From Deltaproteobacteria bacterium (GTDB lineage Bacteria > Myxococcota_A > Polyangia > Polyangiales > JADJMO01), in contig JACPFM010000040.1 of assembly GCA_016182965.1 (NCBI GenBank), forward strand, positions 43,833 to 107,832: a stretch of DNA of 64,000 bases, read 5' to 3'. Both the position numbers and the translations under genes were made by a program. Positions within the stretch are counted from its first letter, which is position 1, and each line of letters begins with the position of its first letter. The notes beneath the pieces are model-generated. The model did not search any database and had not been told where the DNA came from. It saw only the letters and a program-made list of their open reading frames with translations. Below are positions 1,572 through 33,842 of the stretch, one piece after another.

Positions 1572-1581
1572 GGGCACCACG

Positions 1582-2910
<1,329 letters not shown>

Positions 2911-2938
2911 TCGCGAACGGTCGGAAGGGGAAGGCGAA

Positions 2939-3532
2939 ATGGCTCAGGCCAACCTGCTCGAACAAATCTACTTCGCGCTCTGCGCGCTGCTCGCCGTCGC
3001 GGGCGCGATCGGGACCGTCGCGTTCCCGAACCCGATCCGCGGGGCGCTCTCGCTCCTGTTCTCGATCGTCGCGATCGCGGGGCTGTACCTCCAGCTCCAC
3101 GCGCCGTTCCTCGCGGCGATCCAGCTGATCGTCTACGCGGGCGCGGTCGTCGTCCTCTTCCTGTTCGTGATCATGCTGATCGGACCGGACGCGGTGCCGC
3201 CGAAGGACTCGCGCGCGCTGGTGGCGCGCGTCGGAGGAGGGGTCGCCGCCACGGCGATCTCGCTCCTGGTCCTGATGGTCCTCGCGAGGAAGACCTTCCC
3301 GCGCATCGCGCCGGCGCAGGCGGAGTTCGGGTCGGTCGAGTCGATCGGCGCGCTCCTCTTCACCGACTACCTCGTGCCGTTCGAGGTCGCCTCCTTCCTC
3401 CTGATGGTGGCGATCGTCGGCGCGGTGGCGGTGGCGCGCGGCAAGCAGCCCGACCCGCAGCTGGCCAAGGGCAAAACGCAAGAGCTGGTCCCGGCCGACG
3501 AGGCCGGGCTCAAGGACCGAGGTGAGCGATGA
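2939..3532 (+). CDS. nuoJ: NADH-quinone oxidoreductase subunit J
   Basis: NuoJ is a membrane-arm subunit with about five transmembrane helices and no cofactor. The 197-residue product shows the family core in its third helix (QLIVYAGAVVVLFLFVIML). The ATG at 2939 follows a purine-rich GAAGGGGAAGG site. Its stop overlaps the nuoK start (ATGA at 3529-3532), indicating translational coupling. The C-terminal tail (Lys/Glu-rich, about 25 residues) is polar. Confidence 0.94.
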   Translation: MAQANLLEQIYFALCALLAVAGAIGTVAFPNPIRGALSLLFSIVAIAGLYLQLHAPFLAAIQLIVYAGAVVVLFLFVIMLIGPDAVPPKDSRALVARVGGGVAATAISLLVLMVLARKTFPRIAPAQAEFGSVESIGALLFTDYLVPFEVASFLLMVAIVGAVAVARGKQPDPQLAKGKTQELVPADEAGLKDRGER

Positions 3533-3834
3533 TCCCGATCCCTGCGTTCCTGGTCCTGGCCGCCGTCCTCTTCGGGATCGGCGCCGTCGGGTTCCTCGTG
3601 CGCCGTAACGTGCTGGTCGCGCTCATGAGCATCGAGCTGATGCTCAACGCGATCAACCTCACGTTCGTCGCCTTCAACCGGGCGTACCCGCACCAGCACA
3701 CCGGTCAGATCACGTCGTTCTTCGTGATCGCGATCGCAGCCGCCGAAGCAGCAGTGGGCCTCGCCATCGTCCTCTCCTTCTTCCGCCTCCGGAAGACCGT
3801 GCGCTCCGACAGCGCCGACCTCCTGAAGAACTGA
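3529..3834 (+). CDS. nuoK: NADH-quinone oxidoreductase subunit K
   Basis: NuoK has three transmembrane helices and two conserved membrane Glu residues used in proton transfer. The product is 101 residues, the typical size. The first membrane Glu is in LMSIELMLNAINL and the second in AIAAAEAAVGLAIVL. The start overlaps the nuoJ stop by four bases; nuoL begins 3 bp downstream. Confidence 0.96.
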   Translation: MIPIPAFLVLAAVLFGIGAVGFLVRRNVLVALMSIELMLNAINLTFVAFNRAYPHQHTGQITSFFVIAIAAAEAAVGLAIVLSFFRLRKTVRSDSADLLKN

Positions 3835-3837
3835 CCG

Positions 3838-6615: not shown

Positions 6616-6625
6616 GGTAGGGACG

Positions 6626-8461
6626 ATGAACACGCAACAGGCAGTCGCCGACAACGCCCACGCGCTCCAGCCGCTCGCCGCGTTCGCCGCCAAGTCTTGG
6701 CCGGTCATCGCCGCCGGCGCCGCCGGCGCGCTGGTGCCCCGGCGCGAGTCGCGCACCGAGCGCTTCTGGTTCGCCGTCGCGGCGGCGCTCACCGTGCTGT
6801 TCGTGATGCTGCTCTGGCCCGACGCCGCCAAGGTCGCCGAAGAGGCGGTCGCGCCGGCGGCGGAGGGTCCGGCCTATCCGCACCTGATCTCCTGGCTGAT
6901 CTTCATCCCGGTCATCGGCTCGGCGGTCGTGCTGTTCACGCCGCGTCAGGCGACGCGCGCGGTGCAGCTCGTCACGATGCTCACGATGGCGGCGGAGCTC
7001 GGGGCCACGGCCCTGCTCTTCAAGGTCCCCATCCAAGAGGGCAAGTGGTGGCTCGAGGAGAGCGTCCAGTGGATCCCCTCGTGGGGCATCAAGTACCACG
7101 TGGCGCTCGACGGCATCAGCTTCTGGCTGATCGTCCTGACCAGCGTGCTCACGCCCGTCGCGGTGTGGGTCTCGTACGGCTCGATCCACACCCGCCTCAA
7201 GGATTTCTCCTTCGCGTTCCTCATGCTGCAGGGGGCGATGGTCGGCTCGCTCGTCGCGATCGATCTCTTCCTCTTCTACGTGATGTGGGAGGCGATGCTC
7301 ATCCCGATGTACGTGCTCATCGGGGTGTGGGGCGGCGTCGATCGCGTCAAGGCGGCGATCAAGTTCTTCCTCTACACGATGGCCGGCAGCATGCTGATGC
7401 TGGTCGCCATCCTGTGGCTGGTGTTCAAGTACAAGTCGCTCGCCGGCACGCCGTCGTTCGACCTCGAGGACCTGCAGCGGCTCGGCCTGCCGCTGGCGGC
7501 GCAGAAGTGGCTCTTCGCCGGCTTCGCGCTCGCGTTCCTCATCAAGGTCCCGATGTTCCCGGTGCACACGTGGTTGCCCGACGCGCACACGCAGGCGCCG
7601 ACGGGCGGCTCGATCATCCTGGCCGCGGTGCTCCTCAAGCTCGGATCGTACGGCTACATCCGGTTCGGCATGGGGCTGTTCCCGCACGCCGCGCACGACG
7701 CGGGCGCCACGCTCGCGGGCGTCGCGGTGGTCGGCGGGATCATCTACGGCGCGCTCTGCGCGTTGAAGCAGAACGACGTCAAGCGCCTGGTCGCCTACTC
7801 GTCGGTCAGCCACCTCGGGTACGTGATGCTCGGCATCTTCGCCTGCAATCCGGCGTCGATGGAGGGCTCCATCCTCCAGATGGTCAACCACGGCATCTCC
7901 ACCGGCGCGCTCTTCCTCCTCGTCGGCGTCATCTACGATCGCCGCCACACGCGCGAGGTCGGCGAGTACGGCGGCATCGCCAAGGTGATGCCCTGGTTCG
8001 CCGCGGTGTGGGTCATCGTCACCTTCTCCTCGATCGGTCTGCCCGGCACCAACGGGTTCATCGGCGAGTGGCTGGTGATCAGCGGCGCGTTCATGTCGCA
8101 CGGCACGCTCGGGCAGTGGGGCCGCTCGCAGGCGATCGGCGCCGCGGTCGGCGTCATCCTCGGCGCGGCCTACATGCTGACCGTCACGCAGAAGGTGTTC
8201 TACGGGCCGCTCGACAACCCGAAGAACAAGCACCTGCCCGACCTCACGCGCCGCGAGTCGATCGCGCTCGCGCCGCTCATCGTGCTGATCTTCGCGATCG
8301 GCCTGTTCCCGCGCGTGTTCACCGAGCCGATGCACGCGAGCGTCGCTCCGTTCATCCAGAGCTTCAACGCGAAGTGGCGCGCGCCTGCGCCGGAGAAACC
8401 GGTGTTGGCCCCAGCCCCTGAACCCGCCGCGGGCGCTGCCGCCGCGAAGCCCGTGGAGTGA
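6626..8461 (+). CDS. nuoM: NADH-quinone oxidoreductase subunit M
   Basis: NuoM is the middle antiporter-like proton-pumping subunit. Recognisable segments are WEAMLIPMYVLIGVWGG, FPVHTWLPDAHTQAPTGGS and KRLVAYSSVSHLGYVMLG. The protein has 611 residues, longer than the usual 500. It carries about 80 extra N-terminal residues with two hydrophobic stretches and an Ala/Pro-rich tail of about 30. The ribosome site GGTAGGG precedes the ATG. nuoN follows at once. Confidence 0.95.
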   Translation: MNTQQAVADNAHALQPLAAFAAKSWPVIAAGAAGALVPRRESRTERFWFAVAAALTVLFVMLLWPDAAKVAEEAVAPAAEGPAYPHLISWLIFIPVIGSAVVLFTPRQATRAVQLVTMLTMAAELGATALLFKVPIQEGKWWLEESVQWIPSWGIKYHVALDGISFWLIVLTSVLTPVAVWVSYGSIHTRLKDFSFAFLMLQGAMVGSLVAIDLFLFYVMWEAMLIPMYVLIGVWGGVDRVKAAIKFFLYTMAGSMLMLVAILWLVFKYKSLAGTPSFDLEDLQRLGLPLAAQKWLFAGFALAFLIKVPMFPVHTWLPDAHTQAPTGGSIILAAVLLKLGSYGYIRFGMGLFPHAAHDAGATLAGVAVVGGIIYGALCALKQNDVKRLVAYSSVSHLGYVMLGIFACNPASMEGSILQMVNHGISTGALFLLVGVIYDRRHTREVGEYGGIAKVMPWFAAVWVIVTFSSIGLPGTNGFIGEWLVISGAFMSHGTLGQWGRSQAIGAAVGVILGAAYMLTVTQKVFYGPLDNPKNKHLPDLTRRESIALAPLIVLIFAIGLFPRVFTEPMHASVAPFIQSFNAKWRAPAPEKPVLAPAPEPAAGAAAAKPVE

Positions 8462-8466
8462 CCACG

Positions 8467-9840
8467 ATGTCCATCTGGTTCGCCCTCTCTCCGCTCCTGA
8501 TCCTCACCTTCGGGGTGCTCGGCCTCATGCTGGCCGACGCGTTCTCGAAGCGTCACAGCGATCTCGCCCTCGGCTCGTTCATCACCTTCTTCGGCGCGGG
8601 CCTCATGGCCATCGGGCTGTGGATCATGGGTGGTGTGCCCGCCGAGGTCGCGGCCAAGGTCGCGCCCTGGATCATCCTCGACAAATTCACGCTGTTCTTC
8701 ACCGCGACGCTCTGCCTCGGCGGAGCGATCTCGTCGCTGCTCGCCGGCGGGTACCTGCCCGAGCACGACCTCGATCGCGGCGAGTTCTACGCGCTGATGC
8801 TCCTGTCGGCGATCGGCGCGGTGCTCCTCGCGGCCGCCGGCGAGATCCTCGCGCTCTTCATCGGGCTCGAGACGATGTCGCTCGGCGTCTACGCGATGAC
8901 CGCGTTCCGCCGCACCAACCCGCGCAGCGCCGAGGGCGCGCTCAAGTACTTCCTCCTCGGGTCGTTCGCGGCGGCGCTCATGCTCTACGGCGGCGCGCTG
9001 CTCTACGGCGCCACCGGCACCACCACGCTGGTCGGCATCCGCGACGCGCTCACCGGCGGGCAGTTCGGCAGCCTGCGCGATCCGTCGCGCCTGCCGACGG
9101 TCGTCCTGTCGATGGTGTTCATCCTGGTCGGGCTCGCGTTCAAGATCTCCGCGGTCCCCTTCCACATGTGGACGCCCGACGCCTACCAGGGCGCGCCCAC
9201 GCCGGCGACCGCGTTCATGTCGGTCGTCGTCAAGGGCGCCGCGCTCGCCACCATGATGCGCGTGATGCTCGTGGCCTTCGGCGACAAGGCGTCGGCCTCG
9301 TGGTCGAGCGGCTGGCCGCCGGTCGTCGCGGGTCTCGCCATCGCGACGATGGTCGTCGCGAACCTCATCGCGATCCGTCAGGAGAACGTCAAGCGCATGC
9401 TCGCGTACTCGAGCATCGCGCACGCGGGCTACCTGCTCGTCGGCCTCGTCGCCGCGTGGGGGCAGGGCGACCCCGCGGTCGCCGCCGAAGGGCGCGCCGC
9501 GCTCCTGTTCTACATCCTCCAGTACACCGTCACGACGGCCGGCGCGTTCGGCGCGCTGATCCTCTGCGGCTCGCGCGGTCGCGAGGCGGTCACCTACGAG
9601 GGCCTCTCCGGCCTCGGTCGGCGCCACCCGGCGGCGGCCCTGGCCGCGTACTACTACCTGCGCGTGCTCGTGCACCTCTACATGCGCGAGCCGGCGCCGG
9701 GCGCGCCGCAGGCGATCCCGATGCGCTCGGGGTACGTCTACGCCGCGCTGCTCATCTCGGCGGCGCTCTTGCTCTACTTCGGCATCATGCCGGGGCGCTC
9801 GCTGGAGATGGCGGTCGCGGCCGCGAAGTCGCTCGGATGA
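8467..9840 (+). CDS. nuoN: NADH-quinone oxidoreductase subunit N, with apparent loss of helices 11-12
   Basis: NuoN is the proximal antiporter-like subunit of complex I. The first 385 residues are normal, with membrane Lys residues in LKYFLLGSF, FKISAVPFHMWTPDAYQGAP and VVVKGAALATMMR. At residues 387-395 (9625-9651) the sequence jumps from HPAAALA straight to AYYYLRV. About 50 residues that other NuoN proteins have here are absent, including the SLAGIPPTxGFxGKF region with the broken-helix Lys (K395 in E. coli). The frame is kept. The ATG at 8467 is chosen over GTG 8458 because GGAG at 8454-8457 spaces well only with the ATG. Could be real or an assembly collapse. Confidence 0.9.
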   Translation: MSIWFALSPLLILTFGVLGLMLADAFSKRHSDLALGSFITFFGAGLMAIGLWIMGGVPAEVAAKVAPWIILDKFTLFFTATLCLGGAISSLLAGGYLPEHDLDRGEFYALMLLSAIGAVLLAAAGEILALFIGLETMSLGVYAMTAFRRTNPRSAEGALKYFLLGSFAAALMLYGGALLYGATGTTTLVGIRDALTGGQFGSLRDPSRLPTVVLSMVFILVGLAFKISAVPFHMWTPDAYQGAPTPATAFMSVVVKGAALATMMRVMLVAFGDKASASWSSGWPPVVAGLAIATMVVANLIAIRQENVKRMLAYSSIAHAGYLLVGLVAAWGQGDPAVAAEGRAALLFYILQYTVTTAGAFGALILCGSRGREAVTYEGLSGLGRRHPAAALAAYYYLRVLVHLYMREPAPGAPQAIPMRSGYVYAALLISAALLLYFGIMPGRSLEMAVAAAKSLG

Positions 9841-10790
9841 AGTCCTCGCTGCTCGTCGTCTGGTCGGCGTCGGCGCCGGCGCTGCTCTTGGCGCTCTCGC
9901 TGGCGATGTCGACGGGCTGCAAGGAGACCCCGCCCAAGCTCGAGGGGCCGCCGATCACGGCCCCGAGCGGCGAGCCGTCCCTCGGCAAGGCGCCGAAGGT
10001 CGTGCCCTCGAGCCCGCCGACCGAGCAAGACAAGTTCCCGCTCTCGGAGGAGCAGATCCAGGCGGTCGTGAACCCCGGCAAGGCCACCGAGTACACGGGG
10101 CCGACCGGGGTCATCGAGGGCATCGTCCGCGTGAAGGGCGATCCGCCGGCGATGCGCGAGTTCGTCCCGCTGCCCAAGGAGTGCGTCGACGCGCCCAAGG
10201 TCCACGCGCCGATGTACCGCGCCGGTCCCAAGGGCGAGCTCGCCGACACGCTCGTCGCGGTCATCGGGTACTCCGGCTTCGTCCGCCCGAGCCGGCAAGA
10301 CAAGCTGGTCACGATCAAGAGCTGCTCGATCGAGCCGACGATCATCGATCTGAACCTCGGCCAGCGGCTGATGGTCGCGAACGGCGACACCGGGCCGTAC
10401 ATGCCGCAGCTCGCCGACAAGGCGCCGGTGCGTCGGCTCGCGCTCCCCGGCATGTCGCCGGTGCCGCTGTTCATCACGAGCCCCGGCGCCTTCGGCCTGA
10501 CCTGGCTCGCCGGCGCGCTGCCGGGCAGCGACGTCCCGAGCGCCACCGTCTTCGTGCTGCCCAACGCGCTGCACACGGTGACCGGGTTCGACGGGGCGTT
10601 CCGCATCACCGGCGTCCCCGTCGGCAAGGCGCGGGTGACCGCGTCGCACCTCGGCATGGGCGAGGCGTTCCGCGACGTCGAGGTGAAAGGCGGGGCGGAG
10701 ACGAAGGTCGAGCTGACGCTCACCTACACCGCGCCGGCGGCACCTTCGGCCTCGGTGAAGCCGTCGGGCTCGGCCAAGCCGATCCACTGA
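9837..10790 (+). CDS. Lipoprotein with carboxypeptidase-regulatory-like beta-sandwich
   Basis: The start overlaps the nuoN stop (ATGA at 9837-9840), so it is probably translated with the nuo genes. A signal peptide ends in a lipobox (MSTGC, Cys28). Residues about 95-300 resemble a cupredoxin-like plus carboxypeptidase-regulatory-like family often seen beside cytochromes: GVIEGIVRVKGDPP, Cys116 (PKECVDAP), Cys163 (IKSCSIEP), then TVTGFDGAFRITGVPVGKARV. The His residues that would make a copper site are not obvious. The C-terminus is Ala/Ser/Pro-rich. Function unknown; an accessory factor of the respiratory chain is an inference from position. Confidence 0.85.
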   Translation: MKSSLLVVWSASAPALLLALSLAMSTGCKETPPKLEGPPITAPSGEPSLGKAPKVVPSSPPTEQDKFPLSEEQIQAVVNPGKATEYTGPTGVIEGIVRVKGDPPAMREFVPLPKECVDAPKVHAPMYRAGPKGELADTLVAVIGYSGFVRPSRQDKLVTIKSCSIEPTIIDLNLGQRLMVANGDTGPYMPQLADKAPVRRLALPGMSPVPLFITSPGAFGLTWLAGALPGSDVPSATVFVLPNALHTVTGFDGAFRITGVPVGKARVTASHLGMGEAFRDVEVKGGAETKVELTLTYTAPAAPSASVKPSGSAKPIH

Positions 10791-10818: not shown

Positions 10819-10875
10819 GTGTCGACGCGCGTCGCTGTGACATTTGTCAGACGCCCCATCGACGGCGGTCGACAC
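10819..10875. promoter_or_regulatory. Palindromic operator candidates upstream of the heme-copper operon
   Basis: Two dyads lie here. TGACA-TT-TGTCA is a perfect 5-2-5 palindrome at 10838-10849. GTGTCGAC (10819-10826) pairs with GTCGACAC (10868-10875), and the second arm overlaps the -35 candidate of the following promoter. Binding would be expected to affect transcription. The downstream Fe-S Rrf2 regulator is an obvious candidate ligand, but its box is not known here. Confidence 0.4.
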
Positions 10876-10904: not shown

Positions 10905-12383
10905 ATGTCCACTTCTGGCGAACACCGGGCGGCCGTGGGGCTCGAGGTCGCGTGGCAGGACGATCGGGTCCGCGCCCGCGAGTGGATCTTCCTCGCGCTC
11001 GCCTCGCTGTTCCTCGCGGGCGTGCTGGCGACCGGACTCGTGTTCGCGCGCATGCCGGTCTTCGCGACCTGGGTGACCGATCCGGCGTTCTTCAAGCGCT
11101 GCCTCGTGGTCCACGTCGACCTCGCGCTGGTCGTGTGGTTCCACGCGTTCGCCGCGGCGCTCTTCGCGCTCGTGCCGTCGCGGGTGCGCTCGAACCCGAT
11201 CAGCCGCCACGCCTCGGTCCTCGGCGGCGTCGGCGTGGTGATGATGCTCGCGGCCGCCGGGGTGCACGGCGCGCGTCCGGTGCTCGCCAACTACGTCCCG
11301 GTGATCGATCACCCGCTGTACGTCGGCGGCCTCGTCGCGATCGGGCTCGGGCTCGCGGCGACGTTCCTCGATCCGAAGGTGCTGCCGGGGACCGAGCGCG
11401 CGGCGGGCGGGCTCTCGCTGCCGGCGGCTGCGATCGTCGGGCTCCGCGCGTGCGCGGTCGCGGTGCTGCTCGCGCTGCTCACCTTCGCGGCCACGCGGCT
11501 GGTCATCCCGGCCGGCCTCGCGCCGGAGGCGCACTGGGAGATCGTGATGTGGGGCGGGGGCCACGTCCTGCAGTTCGCGAGCGTCGCCGCGATGCTCGCC
11601 GCCTGGACCATCCTCGTCGCGCAGGTGATCGGTCGCGCCGGAGGCGCGCCGGTCTCGCCGATCGAGCGCAAGCACGCGCTCGCGCTGTTCGCGCTCTTGG
11701 TCACGCCGCTCTTCGCGGCGCCGCTCCTGCCGTTCACCGGCGTGACCGGCGCGACGTATCACGTGACCTTCACGCGCCTGATGCAGTTCGGGATCGCGCC
11801 GGCGGTCCTCGGCTACCTCGCGATCCTCGTCCGCTCGGTGCTGCGCGCCCGTCGCGAGGGCGCGCTGCCCGCCGGCGCGCTGTCGAGCGGGGCGTTCCTC
11901 GGCTTCGCCGCGAGCGCCGCGCTCACCCTCGTCGGCTTCGCGCTCGGCGCCTCGATCCGCGGCCCGAACACCACCATCCCGGCGCACTACCACGCGTCGA
12001 TCGGCGCGGTGACCGTCTCGTTCATGGCGCTCACGGTGCCCGTGCTCGAGGCGCTCGGCTTCAAGTCGCCCTCGCGGCGCGTCGCGGCGATCGCGCGGGT
12101 GCAGCCGATGCTGCTCGGCCTCGGACAGCTGGTCTTCGCGATCGGCTTCGCGCTCGCCGGCGCGCACGGCATGCGCCGCAAGGCGTACGGCGGCGAGCAA
12201 GTGATTCGCACGTGGGCCGAGTGGCTCGGCCTCGGTGTGATGGGCGTCGGCGGCCTCGTGGCGGTCGTCGCCGGCGTCCTGTTCCTGATCGTCGTCGGCG
12301 CGATGTGGCGCCGTCGTCTTGTTCCGACTCGTGACCAACGAGGTGACGCATGGCTGCTGGCAAGCACCCACTCCAACGCTTGA
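10905..12383 (+). CDS. Diverged heme-copper oxidase subunit I homologue
   Basis: An integral membrane protein (492 aa, about 12 helices) with the skeleton of heme-copper oxidase subunit I. Candidate ligands are H70 (VHVDLALVVWFHA), H220 (MWGGGHVLQF), H286 (TYHVTF) and H361/H363 (AHYHASIGAVTVSFMAL). The adjacent HH pair that normally completes the CuB site is reduced to Y285-H286, and the residue four after H220 is Phe, not Tyr. It may therefore keep hemes but lack a normal binuclear centre. It resembles cbb3-type subunit I annotations but is far from canonical. It heads an operon whose fourth gene is a second, full subunit I. Role inferred only. Confidence 0.75.
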   Translation: MSTSGEHRAAVGLEVAWQDDRVRAREWIFLALASLFLAGVLATGLVFARMPVFATWVTDPAFFKRCLVVHVDLALVVWFHAFAAALFALVPSRVRSNPISRHASVLGGVGVVMMLAAAGVHGARPVLANYVPVIDHPLYVGGLVAIGLGLAATFLDPKVLPGTERAAGGLSLPAAAIVGLRACAVAVLLALLTFAATRLVIPAGLAPEAHWEIVMWGGGHVLQFASVAAMLAAWTILVAQVIGRAGGAPVSPIERKHALALFALLVTPLFAAPLLPFTGVTGATYHVTFTRLMQFGIAPAVLGYLAILVRSVLRARREGALPAGALSSGAFLGFAASAALTLVGFALGASIRGPNTTIPAHYHASIGAVTVSFMALTVPVLEALGFKSPSRRVAAIARVQPMLLGLGQLVFAIGFALAGAHGMRRKAYGGEQVIRTWAEWLGLGVMGVGGLVAVVAGVLFLIVVGAMWRRRLVPTRDQRGDAWLLASTHSNA

Positions 12384-12493
12384 TGGACAACCCCTGGCTT
12401 CTGTTGGCCCTCGGGATCGTCGTTCCCTTCCTCTCCTACACGCTCTGGGGGTGGTGGGAGATCGCGACGATGCCGCCGGCGCAGCTGCCCTGA
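12350..12493 (+). CDS. 47-residue single-helix membrane peptide of the heme-copper operon
   Basis: A short gene in the -1 frame overlapping the last 34 bases of the preceding gene. GAGG at 12340-12343 sits six bases before the ATG at 12350, which favours this start over the in-frame ATG at 12383. The product has a basic N-terminus (MAAGKHPLQRL), one hydrophobic helix (WLLLALGIVVPFLSYTLW), then WWEIATMPPAQLP. It is placed like CcoQ-type small oxidase subunits and probably stabilises the complex. Confidence 0.75.
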   Translation: MAAGKHPLQRLMDNPWLLLALGIVVPFLSYTLWGWWEIATMPPAQLP

Positions 12494-12508
12494 GAAAGGA
12501 CCCGGCTC

Positions 12509-13033
12509 ATGAGCATCCACGTCCCCGAAGAGACATGGTTCAAGCCGCCGTCGGGCGCAGAGCGCACCTGGATCGGACTCGCCTTGGCCTGGTGCCTCGT
12601 GCTGTCGATCATGATGCCGTACTGGCACTTCAAGGGTAAGCAGAACAGCACCGGCGACTCGTACTCGGTCACGCCGACCGCGTTCGGCGCGCGCGTCGAG
12701 CAGTTCGTGAAGACCAACAAGGTCGGCGAGACGAACGGCATCCCGATCGTCGAGCCGAGCCCCGGCGGCGACGCGTACCTGCAGGCGCAGATGTGGCGTT
12801 GGTACCCGGTCCTCAAGCTGAAGGAGGGGCAGACCTACCGCCTCCACGTGTCGTCGATGGACCTGCAGCACGGCTTCTCGCTGCTGCCGATGAACATGAA
12901 CTTCCAGGTCCTGCCCGGGTACGACCACGTGCTCACCATCACCCCGACGATCAAGGGCGAGTACTCGATCGTCTGCAACGAGTTCTGCGGCATCGGGCAC
13001 CACCTGATGACCGGGAAGATCGTCGTCGAATAG
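12509..13033 (+). CDS. CuA-containing subunit II of a heme-copper oxidoreductase
   Basis: A 174-residue protein with one N-terminal membrane helix (IGLALAWCLVLSIMMPYW) and a cupredoxin domain. The complete CuA set is present: H121 (LQHGFSLLP), C156, C160, H164 and M167 in CNEFCGIGHHLM. It would accept electrons from a c-type cytochrome or cupredoxin outside the membrane and pass them to subunit I. The short form with one helix resembles B-family (ba3-like) subunit II. An AAAGGA ribosome site precedes the ATG. Confidence 0.9.
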   Translation: MSIHVPEETWFKPPSGAERTWIGLALAWCLVLSIMMPYWHFKGKQNSTGDSYSVTPTAFGARVEQFVKTNKVGETNGIPIVEPSPGGDAYLQAQMWRWYPVLKLKEGQTYRLHVSSMDLQHGFSLLPMNMNFQVLPGYDHVLTITPTIKGEYSIVCNEFCGIGHHLMTGKIVVE

Positions 13034-13042
13034 GAGGCTCTG

Positions 13043-14644
13043 ATGTCCACGGCCATTGCCATCGAACCTCCCGCGAGGGAGTCCTCGCCGTCGGGCCTCT
13101 CCGTCGGCAACCACCCCTCGGCAGGCGTACGGACCTGCGAGACGACCGGTCTGCCGGTGTGCCTCACCGCGCAGCAGTTCATCCGACTCAACGCGGTGAT
13201 CGCGGTCGTCGCGCTGCTCGCCGGCGGCGTCGCCGCGCTGCTCGTCGGCCTCACGCGCTGGCCGACGGTCCACCTCCTCGATCCGGTCTGGTACTACCGC
13301 CTGGTCACGTTCCACGGCCTGAACATGCTGATCTTCTGGATCCTGTTCATGGAGATCGGGATCCTCTACTTCGCGGCGACGACGCTGCTGAACACGAGGT
13401 TGTTCTCCAAGAGCCTCGCGTGGACGTCGTTCGCGATGATGCTGTCGGGCGCGGTCCTCGTCGACGTGACCATCTTGCTGGGCAAGGCCGACGTCATGAT
13501 GACGTCGTACGTGCCGCTCAAGGCCCACTCGAACTTCTACCTCGGCATCATCCTCGTCGCGGTCGGTACGCTGATCGGCGTCGGCAACTTCTTCGGGACG
13601 CTGTACATCGCCAAGCGCGACAAGACGTACATCGGATCGGTGCCGCTGGTCGTGTTCGGCGCCACCGCCGCCGCGATCATCGCGGTCGTCACGCTGCTGC
13701 ACGGCGCGATCGTCATGATCCCGACGTGGCTCTGGTCGCTCGACGTGATCAAGCACGTCGACGCCGGCTGGTACCGCCTCATCTGGTGGGGCCTAGGCCA
13801 CCAGTCGCAGCAGGTGAACGTCTGCGCGATGGTGTCGGTCTGGTACATGCTCGGCACGATCACCACCGGCGCCAAGCCGATCAACCAGGCGGTGTGCCGC
13901 GGCGCGTTCGTCCTCTACATCCTCTTCATCAACCTCGCGTCCGCCCACCACCTGCTGGTCGATCCGGGCGTCGGCGCGAGCTGGAAGATCTGGAACACCT
14001 CCTACGCGATGTACCTCGCGGTGCTCGCGTCGATGATCCACGGGTTCACCGTGCCGGCGTCGGTCGAGGTGGCGATGCGCAAGAAGGGCCACAACCGCGG
14101 CCTCTTCGGCTGGCTGGCGGCGGCGCCCTGGAAGAACCCGGGCTTCTCGGCCTTCTTCCTCTCGCTGCTCATCTTCGGGTTCATCGGCGGCATCACCGGC
14201 GTCACGCTGGGCACGCAGCAGATCAACATCCTCGCGCACAACACGCTGCGCATCCCCGGCCACTTCCACTCCACGGTGGTCGGCGGCACCTCGCTCGCGT
14301 TCATGGGCCTCGCGTATTACGTGGTGCCGCTCATCTTCAAGCGCGAGTTCTACGCCCGCGGCCTCGCCCGCATCCAGCCGTACATCTTCGCGGTCGGCAT
14401 CGTGATCATGTCGCTCGGCATGTCGTTCGCCGGCTCGTACGGCGTCCCGCGTCGTCACTGGGACGTCCAGTTCGCCGGCGCGCAGTTCGCTGCGGGCTTC
14501 GGCTCCGGCGCGCACGTGATGCTCGGCATCATGGGCGTCGGCGTCGTGCTCGCGTTCGTCGGTCTGATCACGTTCGTGCTGCTGGTCGTCGCCGCGGTGT
14601 TCTTCGGCAAGAAGATCGAGAACCGCCCGATGACGGCCTGGTGA
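13043..14644 (+). CDS. Heme-copper oxidoreductase subunit I lacking the active-site tyrosine
   Basis: The catalytic subunit (533 aa, 12 or more helices), with AGGAGG before its ATG. All six metal His residues are present: H91 (TFHGLNM), H253 (GLGHQSQQ), H302-H303 (SAHHLL) and H407/H409 (GHFHSTVVGGTS). The residue four after H253, Tyr in A- and B-family oxidases and Glu in cNOR, is Gln257. The C-family Tyr position on helix VII is also not Tyr (Gln by my count back from H302). With a CuA partner and no Tyr it fits the non-canonical NO reductase-like branches better than an oxygen reductase; the assignment to a branch is uncertain. An automatic label of cbb3-type subunit I would be misleading. 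Confidence 0.88.
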   Translation: MSTAIAIEPPARESSPSGLSVGNHPSAGVRTCETTGLPVCLTAQQFIRLNAVIAVVALLAGGVAALLVGLTRWPTVHLLDPVWYYRLVTFHGLNMLIFWILFMEIGILYFAATTLLNTRLFSKSLAWTSFAMMLSGAVLVDVTILLGKADVMMTSYVPLKAHSNFYLGIILVAVGTLIGVGNFFGTLYIAKRDKTYIGSVPLVVFGATAAAIIAVVTLLHGAIVMIPTWLWSLDVIKHVDAGWYRLIWWGLGHQSQQVNVCAMVSVWYMLGTITTGAKPINQAVCRGAFVLYILFINLASAHHLLVDPGVGASWKIWNTSYAMYLAVLASMIHGFTVPASVEVAMRKKGHNRGLFGWLAAAPWKNPGFSAFFLSLLIFGFIGGITGVTLGTQQINILAHNTLRIPGHFHSTVVGGTSLAFMGLAYYVVPLIFKREFYARGLARIQPYIFAVGIVIMSLGMSFAGSYGVPRRHWDVQFAGAQFAAGFGSGAHVMLGIMGVGVVLAFVGLITFVLLVVAAVFFGKKIENRPMTAW

Positions 14645-14655
14645 AGAGGGAAGCC

Positions 14656-14826
14656 ATGGCTCAAGAGAAGAAGCCCGTCGAGGTGTTCCAGAAGGAGCAC
14701 GAGCACGACGAGGACGATCACCACACGCCCGGAACGGTGGTGCTCACGCTCGCGCTGCTCGTGTCGTTCGCGGTCTATTACTTCGCGAACTGGAAGGCGC
14801 TCGCGGACGTCTGGCACGTCCGCTGA
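14656..14826 (+). CDS. 56-residue single-helix membrane peptide
   Basis: The gene starts 11 bp after subunit I, with GAAGAGGGAAG upstream of the ATG. The N-terminal half is charged and His/Asp-rich (HEHDEDDHH); the C-terminal half is one membrane helix (VVLTLALLVSFAVYYF). Its size and place suggest an oxidase small subunit such as subunit IIa or IV. The acidic His cluster could bind metal, but that is speculation. Confidence 0.75.
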   Translation: MAQEKKPVEVFQKEHEHDEDDHHTPGTVVLTLALLVSFAVYYFANWKALADVWHVR

Positions 14827-14831
14827 AGCAA

Positions 14832-15096
14832 GTCGTCAGTCGTCAGTCGTCAGTCGTCAGCCGGGAACGGCGGCGGCTGGCGACTGGGGCTGATGGAGCA
14901 CCGGTCTAGAGTCTAGGGTCTAGAGTCTAGAGTCCGGCGGAGAGCGCCGAGCCAGGCCCGTGCCGGAGCTCCTCCACGATGCGGCGGAGCCGCTCGGAGT
15001 CCTCGCTCGTCCCGAGAACGGCGGCGAGGGCCGACTGTGCTGACGACTGATGACTGATGACTGATGACTGACGACTGACGACTGACGACTGACGAC
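14832..15096. repeat. Facing arrays of 7-bp repeats inside the operon gap
   Basis: The 282-bp space before the sco gene holds four GTCGTCA heptads (14832-14859), four TCTAGAG-type heptads (14904-14931) and eight TGACGAC/TGATGAC heptads (15041-15096). The first and last arrays are complementary and could fold into a hairpin of about 28 bp enclosing 180 nt. No gene is credible here; a short open stretch on the minus strand lacks a start signal. Confidence 0.85.
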
Positions 15097-15108
15097 CGAG
15101 GTGACGTG

Positions 15109-16062
15109 ATGGAATCCGAAGCACGCCGCGACGACTCACGCGTGAACGCCGCAGTCCAGTGGCTGTTCCAGGGGCACCGCGCGCCGGCGTTCATGCTGGC
15201 CCTGGTGCTGCTCTACAAGGCGCTGCTCGTGACGATCCTGCTGTGGCCGCCGTCGACGACGGGGCTCGGCGCGTTCGCCGAGGAGTTCAAGGTCTGGTGC
15301 TTCGGCCTCGATCCCCAGACGGGGAAGATGCAGTCGATGTACGTGTTCGTGATGTTCGCCGAGCCGCTGGTCCTCGGCGGCGCGCTGGTCCTCTTGTGGG
15401 GTCGTCAGATGCTCGGCGTCGCGCGTCGCCGCCCGCTCGCGCTGGTGCCGTCGGTGGCGACGGCCATGATCACCGTGGTGATCGCGTCGGCGGCGTTCGG
15501 CTCGATCCGCACCGGCAAGACGGCGACGCCCGCCGGCGAGCTGCCGTTCCCGGGCGCGGCGATCCGCACCTCGCTGCCGCCGCCGCAGGTCGAGCTCGAG
15601 GATCAGAACGGCGAGCACGTCTCGCTCGACGCGCTGCGCGGCAAGGTGGTGATGCTCACCGGCGTCTACGCCTCGTGCAGCGTCACCTGCCCGATGATCA
15701 TGGCGCAGACGCGCCGCGTGTACTTCGCGCTCACGCCCGAGGAGCGCGCGAACGTGATGGTGATCGCGGTCACCCTCGATCCCGAGCGCGACGATCGCGC
15801 GCGCCGCCTGGAGATGACCAAGGGGCAGGGGCTCGAGAGCACGCCGGGGTTCCGCCTCGTGGGAGGCGAAGCCGCGGCCGTCAACCGCGTGCTCGACGAT
15901 CTCTCGATCGCCCGCAAGCGCGATCCGCAGACCGGCGTCATCGACCACACCAACGTCTTCACGGTCGTCGACAAGAAGGGGCGCGTCGCCTACCGGTTCA
16001 GCCTCGGCAAGCAGCAGGAGAGCTGGATGCAGGCGGCGCTGAAGCAGCTGGCGGTGGAGTGA
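15109..16062 (+). CDS. Membrane-anchored Sco/SenC-family copper chaperone
   Basis: Sco proteins deliver copper to, or reduce the thiols of, the CuA site. The C-terminal thioredoxin-fold domain (residues about 150-317) has C190-x3-C194 (CSVTCP) and the conserved copper His280 (DHTNVF). The first 130 residues are unusual, with three hydrophobic segments rather than one anchor. GAGG at 15098-15101 serves the ATG at 15109; a GTG one codon earlier is possible. It lies between the oxidase genes and the cytochrome b fusion, fitting CuA maturation in this operon. Confidence 0.9.
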   Translation: MESEARRDDSRVNAAVQWLFQGHRAPAFMLALVLLYKALLVTILLWPPSTTGLGAFAEEFKVWCFGLDPQTGKMQSMYVFVMFAEPLVLGGALVLLWGRQMLGVARRRPLALVPSVATAMITVVIASAAFGSIRTGKTATPAGELPFPGAAIRTSLPPPQVELEDQNGEHVSLDALRGKVVMLTGVYASCSVTCPMIMAQTRRVYFALTPEERANVMVIAVTLDPERDDRARRLEMTKGQGLESTPGFRLVGGEAAAVNRVLDDLSIARKRDPQTGVIDHTNVFTVVDKKGRVAYRFSLGKQQESWMQAALKQLAVE

Positions 16063-16067
16063 GCGGC

Positions 16068-18167
16068 ATGCGTCACCTGACGGTGATCCAGGAGCCGCGC
16101 GTCCCGGTCGAGGAGAGCCGGCCCGATCCGAAGCTCCGCGGCGACGGCGCGCTCGCGGCGCTGGAGGTCCCGTTCCTCTGGCTCGACCGCGCGATCGAGC
16201 GGTTGGTGCCCGCGAAGTGGAACCCGCTCGCGCAGACGGGCGCCATCGCGAACGTCACCTTCCTCATCGCCTCGATCTCCGGCGTGCTCCTCTTGATCTG
16301 GTACCGCTCGAGCGTCCACAGCGCGTGGTCGTCGCTCGAGGCGATGCGCGGCTCGTTCCTCGCCCAGCTCACCCGGTCCATCCACCGCTACTCGTCCGAC
16401 GCGTGCATGCTGTTCGTGGTCCTGCACGCGGTGCGGCTCACCGCGGCGCGTCGCTTCTCGGGCGCGCGGTGGCTCGCGTGGGTCACCGGCCTGATCTTGA
16501 TCGGTTCGCTGTGGCTGGTCGGCTGGCTCGGCTACTGGCTCGTGTGGGACGAGGCCGCGCGCCAGGTGGCGATCGGCTCGTCGAAGGTGCTCGACGTGCT
16601 GCCCATCTTCGGCGATCCGATGGGGCGATCGTTCCTCACCGACGGCAGCGTGCACTCGCTGCTGTTCTTCATCGTGTTCTTCCTCCACATGCTGCTGCCG
16701 CTGGCGATGGGCATCGCGCTGTGGCTGCACATCACGCGGCTGAACCGCTCGCGGTTCCTCACGTCGCGGGGCATGGCCGTCGCGATCGTCGCCGCGCTGG
16801 TCGTGCTCTCGATCGTGGCGCCGGCGACCAGCGGCAAGTCGGCCAAGATGCTCGTGTCGCCGAGCGCGGTGTCGCTCGACGCCTTCTACCTCCTGCCCAT
16901 CGCGATCACCGATCGCCTCGGCGGCGGGCTGATCTGGGCGGTCACCCTCCTCGGCGGGATCGTCTCCTTCTCGATCCCGTGGGCGCTCTCGCGCGGGCGC
17001 GCGCCGGTCGCCAAGGTCGATCTCGCCAAGTGCAACGGCTGCACGAACTGCGCGGCCGACTGCCCGTACGACGCCATCACGATGGTGGCGCGGACCGACG
17101 GTCGCGACTTCGCGCGGCAGGCGGTGGTCGACGCGGCGAAGTGCGTCGGCTGCGGCGTCTGCGCCGGATCGTGCGACTCCGCGGGCATCGGCATCCCCGC
17201 CGTGTCGCAGGTCGAGGCGCGCGGGCGCATCGACCGGTGGATCGACGAGGTGATCGCCGACGAGGAGGACGCGCTCGTGGCGTTCGTCTGCCAGCGCTCC
17301 GCGGGCGCCGCGGTGAAGGTCGATCCGGAGAGCGGCCGCTCCGACGCGCTGCCCGGGTACCGCGTCATGCCGGTGGTGTGCACCGGCTGGGTGCACGCGC
17401 TCACCGTCGAGCGCGCGCTCCGTCACGGCGCCAAGGGCGTGCTCCTGGTCGGCTGCGGCCGCGCGGAGCCGCCGACGCGCGAGGGCACCCGCTGGACGCA
17501 CGAACGCATCGAGGGCGCCCGCAAGCCCGCGCTCCGAGCCGACAAGGTCGACGCCGCGCGCGTGCGGCTGCTCGAGCTCGATCGCACGCGGGCTTCGGAG
17601 CTGAACGTCGAGGCCGAGGCGTTCCGCACGGGGGCGCCGAGGGCGAGCAGGGCTCCAGCGCGTGCGCTCCGCGCGATCGCGGCCGTCGGCGTGGCGGCCG
17701 TGCTGTCGGGCGCGACGCTGCTCGGCAGTCGCGTCGGCTACGGCGGCCCGCCCTCGCACGGACCTGAGCTCGTCGTCTCGTTCAAGCACCCCGGCCGCAC
17801 CGGCGAGCACTGCCGCCGCGTCACCGAGGAAGAGAAGGCGAAGATGCCGCCGCACATGCGGCGCGACGAGATCTGCGAGCGCGGCCGCGCCGCCGTCCGC
17901 TTGCGCGTCGAGGTCGACGGGCAGGAGCGCTGGCGGTCGAGCTACGCGCCGCAGGGGCTCCGGGGCGACGGCCCGAGCATCGCCCTCGAGACGCTGGGCA
18001 TCCAAGCGGGCGAGCACCGGGTCGTGGTCTCCCTCGGCGACAGCCACGATCCGAACGAGTGGACCTTCCGCGACGAACGTACGCTCCGCTTCGGCGATCG
18101 CAGCCGAGCGGTGGTCTTGTTCGACCGCGGGACGGGATTCACTTGGGAGACGGGCGAAAGCCCCTAG
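16068..18167 (+). CDS. Cytochrome b - 2x[4Fe-4S] - MvhD/FlpD-like fusion protein
   Basis: A 699-residue fusion. Residues about 60-310 are cytochrome b6-like with two His-x13-His pairs, H106/H120 and H207/H221, enough for two b hemes. Next come two ferredoxin motifs beginning at C322 (CNGCTNCAADCP) and C359 (CVGCGVCAGSC). Residues about 400-520 match the MvhD/FlpD family: FVCQRS (C408), VVCTGW (C438), GAKGVLLVGCG (C463) and RWTHERIE. Several of that family's usual Cys residues are replaced. One more helix (about 545-570) leads to a C-terminal beta-rich domain. FlpD-type modules normally link hydrogenase or formate dehydrogenase to heterodisulfide reductase. Here the fusion could link a quinol or soluble donor to the heme-copper unit (inference). 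Confidence 0.85.
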   Translation: MRHLTVIQEPRVPVEESRPDPKLRGDGALAALEVPFLWLDRAIERLVPAKWNPLAQTGAIANVTFLIASISGVLLLIWYRSSVHSAWSSLEAMRGSFLAQLTRSIHRYSSDACMLFVVLHAVRLTAARRFSGARWLAWVTGLILIGSLWLVGWLGYWLVWDEAARQVAIGSSKVLDVLPIFGDPMGRSFLTDGSVHSLLFFIVFFLHMLLPLAMGIALWLHITRLNRSRFLTSRGMAVAIVAALVVLSIVAPATSGKSAKMLVSPSAVSLDAFYLLPIAITDRLGGGLIWAVTLLGGIVSFSIPWALSRGRAPVAKVDLAKCNGCTNCAADCPYDAITMVARTDGRDFARQAVVDAAKCVGCGVCAGSCDSAGIGIPAVSQVEARGRIDRWIDEVIADEEDALVAFVCQRSAGAAVKVDPESGRSDALPGYRVMPVVCTGWVHALTVERALRHGAKGVLLVGCGRAEPPTREGTRWTHERIEGARKPALRADKVDAARVRLLELDRTRASELNVEAEAFRTGAPRASRAPARALRAIAAVGVAAVLSGATLLGSRVGYGGPPSHGPELVVSFKHPGRTGEHCRRVTEEEKAKMPPHMRRDEICERGRAAVRLRVEVDGQERWRSSYAPQGLRGDGPSIALETLGIQAGEHRVVVSLGDSHDPNEWTFRDERTLRFGDRSRAVVLFDRGTGFTWETGESP

Positions 18168-18181
18168 AATGGAGCGCGCGC

Positions 18182-18697
18182 ATGGATCTCCCGCAGACCA
18201 CTGAGTACGCGTTGCGCGCGCTGGCGCACATCGCCACGCTGCCCGACGGAACGCTCGCGCGCGCCGAGACGGTCTCCAACGAGACCGGCGTCCCGCTGCA
18301 CTACCTGCACAAGATCCTGCGGCGGCTCGCCGGCGCGGGGATCCTCGAGGCGAAGAAGGGGCCGGGCGGCGGGTTCGCGCTCGCCAAGGCGCCGCACCGC
18401 ATCCGCTTCATGGAGATCCTCGAGGCGATGGACTCGCCGATGCCCGACGCCTGCGCGTTCGGGTGGGGCAAGTGCGACGCGAACCACCCGTGCCCGCTGC
18501 ACGGCACCTACAGCGAGTTCAAGAACGCGATGATCGGCTGGGCGTCGAAGACGACGCTCGCCGACGTGCGCGCGTACGCCGCCTCGATCGGCGCCGAGCG
18601 CAACTCCGAGATCCGCCGACTGCCGATGGCCTCACGACCCGGCGCGCGCCCCGGCAAGGCGGTAGACGCGCCGGCCAAGAAGAGGAAGGCGAAATGA
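18182..18697 (+). CDS. Rrf2-family regulator with IscR-type Fe-S ligands
   Basis: A 171-residue winged-helix regulator (TTEYALRALAHIA ... LHKILRRLAGAGIL ... GPGGGF). Cys91, Cys98 and Cys104 are followed by His107 (CPLH), almost the same numbering as the [2Fe-2S] ligands of E. coli IscR (92, 98, 104, 107). The NO sensor NsrR uses three Cys plus Asp8; here residue 8 is Glu. An Fe-S sensor responding to NO, oxygen or iron-sulfur status is likely. It sits inside the operon, 14 bp after the fusion gene and overlapping ctaB, and probably controls it. The C-terminus is Lys/Arg-rich. Confidence 0.9.
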   Translation: MDLPQTTEYALRALAHIATLPDGTLARAETVSNETGVPLHYLHKILRRLAGAGILEAKKGPGGGFALAKAPHRIRFMEILEAMDSPMPDACAFGWGKCDANHPCPLHGTYSEFKNAMIGWASKTTLADVRAYAASIGAERNSEIRRLPMASRPGARPGKAVDAPAKKRKAK

Positions 18698-19605
18698 CCG
18701 CGCCCGCCGAGCAGGCGGTCGAGGCGACGCTGCCGGCGCCGCGGGTGCCGCTCGTGGGGGCGCGGGTCGCGCGCGATCTCGTGGCGCTGTGCAAGCCGCG
18801 GATCACCCTGATGGTCACCGCGACCGGCGTCGCCGGCGCGCTCGTCGCGCAGCAGCGCCCGTCGCTCGGCGGCTGGCTCGGCGCGACGCTCGGCACCGCC
18901 GCCATCGTCGCCGGCGCCAACACCCTCAACATGTGGCTCGAGCGCGAGTCCGACGCGCGCATGGAGCGCACGCGCGATCGCCCGCTCGCCGCGGGGCGGC
19001 TGTCTGCGCGCACCGGCCTCTTGTTCGGGCTCGGCCTGTCGCTCGCGTCGGTGCCGTTGCTCCTCGCCGCCAACGGCCTCGTCGCCGTGCTCGGCCTGGT
19101 CGCGCTGGTCACCTACGTCGCGCTGTACACGCCGATGAAGCGCTTCACGTCGTGGTCGCTGCCGGTCGGCGCGATCGCCGGCGCGATGCCGCCGGCCATG
19201 GGCTACGCGGCGGCGACCGGCACGCTCGACGCGCGCGGCGCGTTCCTGTTCGCCGTGCTGTTCGCGTGGCAGCTGCCGCACTTCATGGCGATCTCGATCG
19301 TGCGCGCCGACGAGTACGCGGCCGCCGGGCTCTCGGTCGGCGCGGCCGGCGCGCGGCTGCGCGTGAACAAGCTCGCGATGGTGGTCACCGCCGTCCTGCT
19401 GCTCCTGACCACGCTGGCGGCGCCGCTGGTCGGCCTCGGCGGGCGCGGGTCGCAGATCGTCTCGGCGATCACCGGGCTCGCGATGGTCGCGCTGTCGGTG
19501 CGCGCCGCGAGGGCGGGGGCGGGCCGGAGCGAGGCGCGCGACGCCTTCGCGTTCACGATGGCGCACCTCGCGATCGTGCTGACGGCGCTCGGGGTCGATC
19601 GGTAA
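18694..19605 (+). CDS. ctaB: Protoheme IX farnesyltransferase (heme O synthase)
   Basis: A UbiA-family membrane prenyltransferase that adds farnesyl to heme B to make heme O. The first Asp motif is present (NMWLERESDARMERTRDRPL), as are YTPMKRFT and WQLPHFMAI. The product has 303 residues and about nine helices, the usual size. The start overlaps the regulator's stop (ATGA at 18694-18697) behind AGAGGAAGG. Its presence suggests the heme-copper enzyme uses heme O or a derivative; no ctaA is seen in the window. Confidence 0.95.
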   Translation: MTAPAEQAVEATLPAPRVPLVGARVARDLVALCKPRITLMVTATGVAGALVAQQRPSLGGWLGATLGTAAIVAGANTLNMWLERESDARMERTRDRPLAAGRLSARTGLLFGLGLSLASVPLLLAANGLVAVLGLVALVTYVALYTPMKRFTSWSLPVGAIAGAMPPAMGYAAATGTLDARGAFLFAVLFAWQLPHFMAISIVRADEYAAAGLSVGAAGARLRVNKLAMVVTAVLLLLTTLAAPLVGLGGRGSQIVSAITGLAMVALSVRAARAGAGRSEARDAFAFTMAHLAIVLTALGVDR

Positions 19606-20262: not shown

Positions 20263-23200
20263 TTACTTGCAGGCAATGTACTCCGAGAAGCCATCATCGT
20301 CACTGAAACCGAATCCACCGCTCCAATGGCCGAAGCTGATTCCAAAATACGTGCCTGTTTCGTGGCCAACTTTTCCGCCGAAAGCGCGCGGCAGATCGAA
20401 GCGACCGAAGACAAGACCAATCGGGCCCACCTCAACCGTGCTCTCTAGCAGTCTGATCTTCGCCGTCTCGAGGTGCCATTTGCCATCTCCGCGAACGTCT
20501 CTCTCGTATAGCCCTTCATATCCAGCATACAAGGCCGCTTCGCCAACACCCTTGAGTCCCCCCACCACGCCGGCTGCGGCGATCCCACCTGCGAAAGCGC
20601 CGTTTACCGAATCATATCCGGCGAGACCCACCAACTCTCCCTCGAGCCCCAAGGCCTCAGGGCCCACGTGTTTCGACGCTGCACCCCACGCGTATACCGA
20701 ATAAAGCCCGGTCGGGTCGAGGCGGTTCACCGGATCGTTGCCCGCATACGCGTAGAAATTCGTGGCTCCACCCGCAAAGCCCATGGGCTCCTTCGTCAAC
20801 CACCGCCCGCGCGCCGGATCGTACTCCCGCGCGCCGAAGTGCACGTACTTCGTCGTGCGGTCGTAGAGCCCGCCCGCGAAGCCGAACGGCACCGGCGCAA
20901 AGCCGGGCGCGACGTACTCCCCGACGACCACGCCCCACTCGTTGTAGTCCGTTCGTTGGACGACCGCGCCAGTCGCCGTGTCGACGACGACACGCGGGCT
21001 GCCGAGGTGGTCGGCGAAAATGCGATAGACCTTCCCGCCTTGCAAGACGAGGTCGGGCACGTTCGGACGGCTCGCGAACACGAAGCGCGAGACGAGTGTA
21101 CCGCCCCGATACTCGGCGATTGGGAGCAGGCCGCCGTCTTCGTAGACGTACGCGATGCTGCCCGAAACGCCGCTCTCCTCGCGCAGCACCCGCCGGCCGA
21201 GCGCGTCGTAGCGATAGGTCACCGTGCGTTCGACCCAAGTTGACCAATCGAGTGTGCGCCAGCCTATCAGTTGCCCGTCGGCATCGTACGTGTGGCTGAA
21301 ATCATTCCACCAGTTCCGGACCAGTCGGCCGTCGCGATCGTGAACGAAAGTGTTCGCCGGATCGCTCACGAGCCGATCCTGCGCGTCGTAGGTGTTCCCG
21401 GTGCCGCCGCCCACCGGCACGTCACGGTTGCCGTTGATGTCATAGGAGTAGTTGCGCGTTGCGACCACGGAGCCGGGGCCCTCGTTCAGCCCGGCATTCA
21501 CGATCACGCCCTCGAGCGCGCCGTCATGCCGATACGTGTAGCTGGTCGTCTGGGTACGCTCCGCTAGCCCCGGCACGGCGGCGACGTACTCCGTGAGCCT
21601 CGTGATGCGGCCGCGCGCGTCTCGTTCGTACGTGAAGCCGAGGTAGCGCGTGCCGCTCCTGGTCGCCTCGAGGCCCCACTCGGACACACTCGAGGCGTCG
21701 CGTGCGCCTGCGAGCTCGCCGAAGAGCGACCACGAGAGGTTCTCCCTCGTGCCAGCGACGCTGACGGCGGTCGGCGCACCGTCAGGACGCGGAATTCCGC
21801 CGGTCAGCAGCCGGTCGACCGTGAGCGTTTGGCCGGCGACGGTCGCGGTCTTCAAGAGTCCATCCAGATCGTAGCCGTACGAGACCGTACTCGTGTTCCC
21901 AGCGACATACACGGATTGGGTGTCGAGGCGCAAGCGGCCGTCAAACGTACGGGAGACGGTGGGGTCGATTGTGGCGCCCGAGGACGGCGTGAGGTGAGCC
22001 TCCGTCTGCGTCGGCACGACGCCATCGAACTGGTGCCACGAATACGCCTGCCATGATCCGCCGCGCAGCCGTCCTTGGATGCCCGGGAGGCCGTCCGGTC
22101 CCCATGTCATGTAGTCCATGAAGGATCCAGTACCGCCATCGCTCGACCCGAAGCTCCTTGTTTGCGGACGCATGACCGGTGAGAAGGTCCACGTGTCCTT
22201 TGCCCATGGCTCGCTGCGTGTCAGCTCGCGGAGCTCGAGATCCGCACCCAGAGCGGCCGAGATGCTGGTCGGCTCGGATCCGACCGTTGGTGCGTTGTAC
22301 GCCAGTTTGCCTGACGAGCGGTCGAGCGTGAACGTGTGGAGGGCACTCGTCGTCCCTCCCGTGGCTTGGACGGGCACGACCACCATCGTGGTGCCGTCAG
22401 CAACATGCGTCAGCGTGACCGTGCGTTCGGAGCTACCGTAAGGAGTCGTCACCGTCCGCGGCCGACCGACTTTGTCAGTGGTGATCCGTCCGAGCAATCC
22501 GAGAGGATCGAATGCGCATGCGAGATACCCGGTGGTCGCATCGTACCCAAAGCTGACGCGACGGCAGCCCGCGGGCACCGGCGGAGGCGCGGAGCTGCAG
22601 TCGGCCGCTGGGTGGTCGGGAGTCGTGAGGCTCGGGCAGACGCCCTGTTGAATTGCGGTGATCCGTCCCCGCGCATCGTAACCGAGCCAGAGCTCGTGAT
22701 GTCCCGCGGCGACCACCCGCACGAGCCGGTCCTTCAGGTCGTACTCGACCGCCGTGGTCGCTCCCGATGGCCGCGCAGTGGTGACCCGCGTACCCGACGT
22801 CCCGATCTTCTCGGTCGTCGTGGTCATGCTGCGAGCGCTCGATCCCTCCAGCCAGGACACCGTTTCCGTCAAGTTGGACGCGGTTCCTGGCGCGCTCGCG
22901 TTGGACGGTGACACCGAACGAGCGATGGTGGTGCTGACGATGGGGCTCGAGGGGCTCGGCTTGAAATCGAGCTGCGAAGCGTACGAAGCCACGTGCCCGA
23001 ACCTCGGATCGGAGCTCAACTTGGTGGTCATCGTGGCGTTCGAAGCATACGTCGTCGCCCGAGAGCGGCCGGCAAAGTCCTCCTCCGTCCTGGTGACCTC
23101 GGCCCACATCCCTGTCCCGAGGGTCCTCGTACGAACAAGGTTGCCCGAGCCGTCCGTGCGCAAGTCATACGAAATCTGCTGCCCGGCCCCGGAGGAGACG

Positions 23201-33840: not shown

Positions 33841-33842
33841 TC

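Follow-up and report, generated by a model that had tools for sequence, protein, structure and literature searches.

Which substrate is reduced by a heme-copper enzyme that lacks the active-site Tyr, and which proteins supply its electrons? The question is raised by nine open reading frames (ORFs), P0001 to P0009, in a Deltaproteobacteria bacterium (GCA_016182965.1, contig JACPFM010000040.1; 9.6-Mb genome, 91%-complete assembly). All positions refer to the window, the whole stretch of 64,000 nucleotides that was analysed. An earlier note on this DNA had described nine co-directional genes and a 282-bp repeat-filled gap; all nine ORFs are present on the + strand at 10905-19605, with short overlaps or gaps, and the repeats fill 14827-15108, which is 282 bp. 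Pfam assigns the names CuA subunit II, COX1, Sco, cytochrome b + 2x[4Fe-4S] + FlpD, Rrf2 and UbiA/CtaB, and gives no meaningful match for P0001 and the two small peptides (P0002, P0005). We compared the operon with 80 named loci, the best 80 of 182 P0004 relatives in a scan of 84,980 species genomes, took class-level carrier counts from 290 genomes of the host's class, and scanned plasmids for P0001 and P0007 (72,556 plasmids for P0007). As an explanation of the whole, an eNOR-type nitric oxide (NO) reductase with a dedicated electron-input module is likely. NO reduction is its well-supported part; the routing of electrons, comprising direct delivery by P0007, a quinol source and a heme conduit in P0001, is what we infer.

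The catalytic subunit and its substrate

The P0004 gene (13043-14644, + strand) encodes a COX1 protein (2e-63), and the best PDB matches identify the T. thermophilus ba3 oxidase, of the B family, as its closest solved sequence. Six conserved His residues (H91, H253, H302, H303, H407, H409) correspond to the metal ligands of the low-spin heme, the high-spin heme and CuB. The active-site Tyr is missing from subunit I, as had been noticed from the sequence: the residue aligned to the cross-linked Tyr of ba3 is Q257, invariant in 91 homologs, within a helix VI motif H-x-[SA]-Q-Q-[VI]-N. Replacement of the active-site Tyr of subunit I by Gln defines eNOR, a B-family nitric oxide reductase (PMC8756737). 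The nearest relatives outside the clade, plasmid-borne in Thermus, Thermomicrobium and Defluviimonas, carry the same Gln motif at 48-53% identity to P0004, and Tyr-bearing B-family oxidases reach 28-34%. In a tree including A- and C-family outgroups, the Gln group plus P0001 is separated from the Tyr-bearing rows with support 99/97, and removal of these outgroups leaves the Gln rows as one group (76/84). P0004 sits with the Gln-bearing B-family subunits and not inside an ordinary B- or C-family oxidase clade. Judged by sequence, it is most likely an eNOR-type subunit. The suspicion that the catalytic part is of an unknown type was not borne out, as P0004 has the Gln signature of a described family, reportedly treated by Hemp & Gennis in 2008 and by Murali et al. 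in 2024 (cited in PMC8756737 and PMC11388526). The K-path residues Y248, S309 and T315 of ba3, matched by eye, correspond to the invariant Y268, S330 and T336 of P0004, candidate residues for the one proton channel predicted for eNOR. The two Thermus plasmid eNOR subunits I (L109 8983-10665, L110 7983-9668) have a Lys at the helix X position of the low-spin heme His of other families (GHFK).

The operon resembles eNOR in having a B-family-like subunit I with Gln, a full metal-ligand set and a CuA subunit II directly upstream. This subunit II, P0003 (12509-13033, + strand; COX2 Pfam and CoxB matches), conserves the CuA ligands C156-x-E158-x-C160-x3-H164-x2-M167 and H121. The ba3 genes run small peptide-II-I, as in the operon, where the 47-aa one-helix peptide P0002 (12350-12493, + strand; conserved in order) takes the first of these places. 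P0002-like peptides precede subunit II in the Defluviimonas, Thermomicrobium and Thermus eNOR loci, and P0002 is likely the equivalent of subunit IIa. A second one-helix peptide of 56 aa, P0005 (14656-14826, + strand), is present in 80/80 named loci with an invariant YYFANW...L.D.W. Two accessory genes could serve the metal centres. The Sco/SenC copper chaperone P0006 (15109-16062, + strand; SCO1-SenC 2.5e-16), with a membrane-bound N-terminal part, conserves C190, C194 and H280 and would load CuA, and P0009 (18694-19605, + strand), a heme O synthase CtaB (TIGR01473 228.6 bits, above cut-off), would make heme O. The N-terminal part of P0006 has about three membrane helices, and an invariant N-terminal Cys, C64, lies outside the Sco domain.

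Gene context agrees with NO as the substrate. Relatives of P0004 occur in 12 of the 290 genomes of the class, spread over 8 genera and 5 families. Either nirK or nirS is found in 11/12 carriers vs 32/278 non-carriers (Fisher 2e-9), and nosZ in 10/12 vs 56/278, both comparisons being uncorrected for relatedness. A sample of 31 carriers from other loci includes 18 with a nirK match and 7 with a cytochrome d1 match. The flanks of the 80 named loci contain nirK (11), the NO-repair gene RIC (10), Crp/Fnr regulators (12) and cytochrome d1 proteins (4). One Thermus eNOR locus has an annotated nitrite reductase, and Rrf2 and DUF542 genes lie alongside in both Thermus loci. The host itself encodes nirS and two nosZ. 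It has four COX1 genes, namely two A-family genes (the second, on contig C151, called from COX1 score only), one cbb3 and P0004; since the other three belong to these oxidase types, P0004 is the only candidate NO reductase of the host in its 91%-complete assembly. Supportive physiology comes from an Opitutales isolate with eNOR as its only annotated NO reductase, which respires nitrite to nitrous oxide (N2O) at about 2:1 (PMC13274419).

These observations bear on the possibility that P0004 is a micro-oxic oxygen reductase minus the cross-linked Tyr. Its B-family relatives are oxidases and it keeps all oxidase metal ligands, as such an enzyme should, but Gln is invariant at the oxidase Tyr site, nirK/nirS, nosZ, RIC and Dnr-type boxes accompany the operon, and the host is already equipped with two A-family oxidases and a cbb3. 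Given the eNOR signature and the nir/nosZ/RIC context, we rejected the Tyr-less oxygen reductase as highly improbable. The suggestion that NO rather than ordinary O2 is the substrate is, on the same signature and context, probable, and we consider it very likely that the enzyme predicted from the operon is an NO reductase.

A recurrent gene set with two unusual membrane proteins

The earlier note had asked whether the gene set recurs. Seven genes recur in the same order, P0001-P0002-P0003-P0004-P0005-P0006-P0007, in dozens of loci from at least six phyla, the 80 named loci representing Myxococcota, Verrucomicrobiota, Balneolota/Rhodothermota, Planctomycetota, Calditrichota and Spirochaetota; this conservation of order rules out a chance cluster. 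Where the contig has room, P0006 is found in 70/70 loci, P0007 in 62/62 and P0001 in 60/65. Within the host's class, the P0007 carriers are exactly the 12 P0004 genomes, and the P0001 carriers are the same 12 plus one with a stand-alone copy. The two unusual membrane partners, P0001 and P0007, thus recur together across many phyla. The stand-alone P0001-like gene (L131, about 1505-2835, minus strand) lies in a genome without P0004, with no adjoining eNOR, and a short gene upstream of it is cupredoxin-like by eye.

P0001 (10905-12383, + strand; 492 aa), described before as a diverged second subunit I, is indeed a relative of B-family subunit I, in spite of having no Pfam COX1 match. The best solved relative of its family profile is ba3 subunit I (E 6e-8), which is also the best structural relative of its AlphaFold model (pLDDT 90.6). 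The residues H70, H361 and H363, which match the ligands of the low-spin and high-spin hemes, are invariant, as is H220 of helix VI, and all or almost all members keep R425 and K/R426. The CuB His-His pair of helix VII was found in 0/78 true P0001 members. With three heme ligands invariant and the His-His pair gone, P0001 is expected to hold two hemes but no CuB. As only H220 of the three CuB His remains, it is a relative of heme-copper subunits and not a functional heme-copper site. The absence of the pair also rules out an ordinary second oxidase, and the only library matches of P0001, to DciA and TrbF (E 0.17 and 0.055), are chance. The plasmid scan gave no match to P0001.

P0007 (16068-18167, + strand) joins a cytochrome b6 part, subunit-IV-like helices, 2x[4Fe-4S], FlpD, a transmembrane segment and a C-terminal beta domain; Pfam confirmed the cytochrome b + 2x[4Fe-4S] + FlpD fusion that had been read from the sequence. 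Residues 31-223 match cytochrome b6 (1.4e-31), with H106, H120, H207 and H221 invariant, consistent with two bis-His b hemes in four helices. All eight [4Fe-4S] Cys are invariant. By charge distribution, the Fe-S/FlpD part should face inward and the C-terminal beta domain outward. Neither the operon nor its conserved core has a Rieske iron-sulfur protein, and a hydrogenase or Hdr part was ruled out, there being no hydrogenase/Hdr genes nearby. The only plasmid match to P0007 is in the eNOR operon of Defluviimonas sp. SAOS-178 (plasmid NZ_CP156080). The two operons share the small peptide, CuA subunit II, QQxN subunit I, heme O synthase, Sco and cytochrome b/2x[4Fe-4S]/FlpD; the Defluviimonas operon differs in having no P0001, in encoding the C-terminal domain of P0007 as a separate gene and in an added hemerythrin. 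In the literature, the only link between FlpD, cytochrome b and NO reductases that we found was a single cytochrome b6/FlpD protein, listed in a table on another subject (PMC8756737).

Compared with known systems, the operon differs from eNOR in adding a CuB-less subunit I and a cytochrome b/Fe-S/FlpD protein to the conserved seven-gene core. The T. thermophilus ba3 oxidase provides the closest solved fold for P0001; it differs from P0004 at the Tyr to Gln position and from P0001, which has no CuB His-His pair. P0007 resembles cytochrome b6f and the anammox b6-like Rieske/cytochrome b complexes with NAD(P) oxidoreductase (PMC12954380) in its four-helix b6-type cytochrome b, its subunit-IV-like part and an n-side redox module. 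Unlike those complexes, the operon has neither a Rieske protein nor a multiheme c domain, and P0007 carries n-side 2x[4Fe-4S]+FlpD on the same chain and is encoded beside an NO reductase. The claim of an undescribed system accordingly stands in part: P0001 and P0007 are unusual, but the catalytic core is of the known eNOR type. Provisionally, we confine the novelty to these extra membrane proteins.

Candidate electron routes

In the scheme that we propose, P0003 (CuA) and P0004 (two hemes, CuB, Gln for Tyr), together with P0002 and P0005, would reduce NO to N2O, as the family signature and genome context suggest. The b6/subunit-IV-like cytochrome b of P0007 may oxidise menaquinol at an outer-face Qo-like site and pass electrons toward CuA, and its inner-face [4Fe-4S] pair may link to a cytoplasmic partner. 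P0001 would most likely be a partner of P0004 or P0007 that conducts electrons through hemes only. The steps are not equally secure: P0007 is probably the electron donor of the NO reductase, quinol as the main electron source falls somewhat short of an even chance, and the conduit role of P0001 is put forward just as tentatively. That eNOR, its copper-less heme paralog and the b6-type cytochrome b form a single membrane complex, taking electrons directly from quinol or the cytoplasm, bypassing complex III/cytochrome c and possibly bifurcating them, seems doubtful.

Several observations weigh against this scheme. The assignment of P0004 to eNOR rests on the Gln signature and the Thermus relatives, and the nir enrichment ignores the kinship of the genomes. 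The 93 residues of P0007 that follow the cytochrome b6 match, searched alone against the whole PDB, do find b6f subunit IV in their first three matches, at E values (0.046-0.23) that are weak alone; the PEWY motif of b6f aligns to D-x-W-Y, with an invariant Asp and without conservation of the PEWY Glu. Only 62/80 P0007 rows have all three Cys of the FlpD triad. The tree placement of P0001 is unstable because of its long branch. P0001 is missing from five of the 65 loci with room, all with an eNOR/P0007 operon (L056, L068, L077, L092, L094), and from the Defluviimonas, Thermus and Thermomicrobium eNOR loci, so eNOR does not depend on it.

The direction of electron flow through P0007 might be the reverse. 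An eNOR core could be fed by cytochrome c or cupredoxins, with P0007 carrying electrons from a cytoplasmic reductant through FlpD/Fe-S and the b hemes to the quinone pool or CuA. The usual role of FlpD is to accept electrons in the cytoplasm and deliver them to Fe-S proteins, the eight Fe-S Cys are invariant, and the cytochrome b topology with positive charge near the membrane suggests an inner-face Fe-S part, all of which would suit such a route. It is made unlikely by a conserved core without a flavin, NADH or ferredoxin-oxidising partner, and by the subunit-IV-like Qo region with its invariant Asp, which points to outer-face quinone chemistry. Alternatively, P0007 could bifurcate menaquinol electrons, one branch reaching NO via CuA and the other passing from bL and bH through the [4Fe-4S] pair to a cytoplasmic acceptor, so that NO respiration would drive formation of low-potential reductant. 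The b6 and subunit-IV-like parts with n-side Fe-S clusters are in keeping with this, NO is a very strong oxidant, and there is a precedent proposal in the anammox b6-like complexes, for which bifurcation was proposed with another N-oxide reaction (PMC12954380). With no Rieske protein in the operon, no conserved cytoplasmic acceptor and the PEWY Glu replaced, bifurcation appears improbable.

For P0001, the alternative is a non-redox assembly or structural paralog without heme binding. P0001 no longer has CuB, has diverged much faster than P0004 and is not present at every locus, as might be expected of such a protein. Against it, the three heme ligands, the His of helix VI and R425/K426 are kept in all or almost all members, and we regard a heme-less paralog as rather unlikely.

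Regulation, flanking features and significance

P0008 (18182-18697, + strand), which the earlier note had called an IscR-type regulator, belongs to the Rrf2 family and keeps its Fe-S ligands (C91/C98/C104 and H107). It passes the Rrf2 superfamily cut-off and scores below the curated cut-offs of both IscR (50.5 bits) and NsrR (48.4), so neither name can be assigned from its sequence. A homologue is present in 36/91 loci, often divergent upstream of P0001. Upstream of P0001 in the window lies a candidate Crp/Fnr/Dnr-type box, GTGACATTTGTCAG (10837-10850, + strand; 8/10 match to TTGAY-N4-RTCAA), which is not significant alone; in the homologous regions, a perfect Dnr/Fnr-type box is found upstream of P0001 in 22/75 vs 0.0 expected. 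P0008 and Crp/Fnr-type control might turn the operon on with NO or low oxygen.

The gap at 14827-15108 (no strand) is a dispersed inverted heptamer-repeat element and not part of the system. It has 834 exact 21-mer matches genome-wide (427 forward, 407 reverse; reversed control 0), and because it is dispersed in this way it is not operon-specific and was ruled out as a regulatory element of the operon. Such (AGTCGTC)n arrays, in inverted pairs, occur at 14827-15108 and 33810-33841 of the window and in hundreds of copies in the genome, and, compared with shuffled sequences, the operon copy folds much better (z -6.3). On the same strand 5′ of the operon are the complex I genes nuoE, F, J, L, M and N (1071-9840, by inspection) and, just 5′ of P0001, a gene for a lipoprotein with a carboxypeptidase-regulatory domain (9843-10790). 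A protein of 2193 aa is encoded on the minus strand at 20263-26844 and combines a teneurin-type YD-shell with NHL and TTR-like domains.

In denitrification, N2O is formed at the step of NO reduction, and annotation routinely labels eNOR genes as cytochrome c oxidases. With P0001 and P0007 as gene markers, this eNOR type could be told apart from oxidases in metagenomic data. If the proposed scheme is true, the operon shows the source of eNOR electrons, and a heme-only member, kept across many phyla, would join the heme-copper superfamily.

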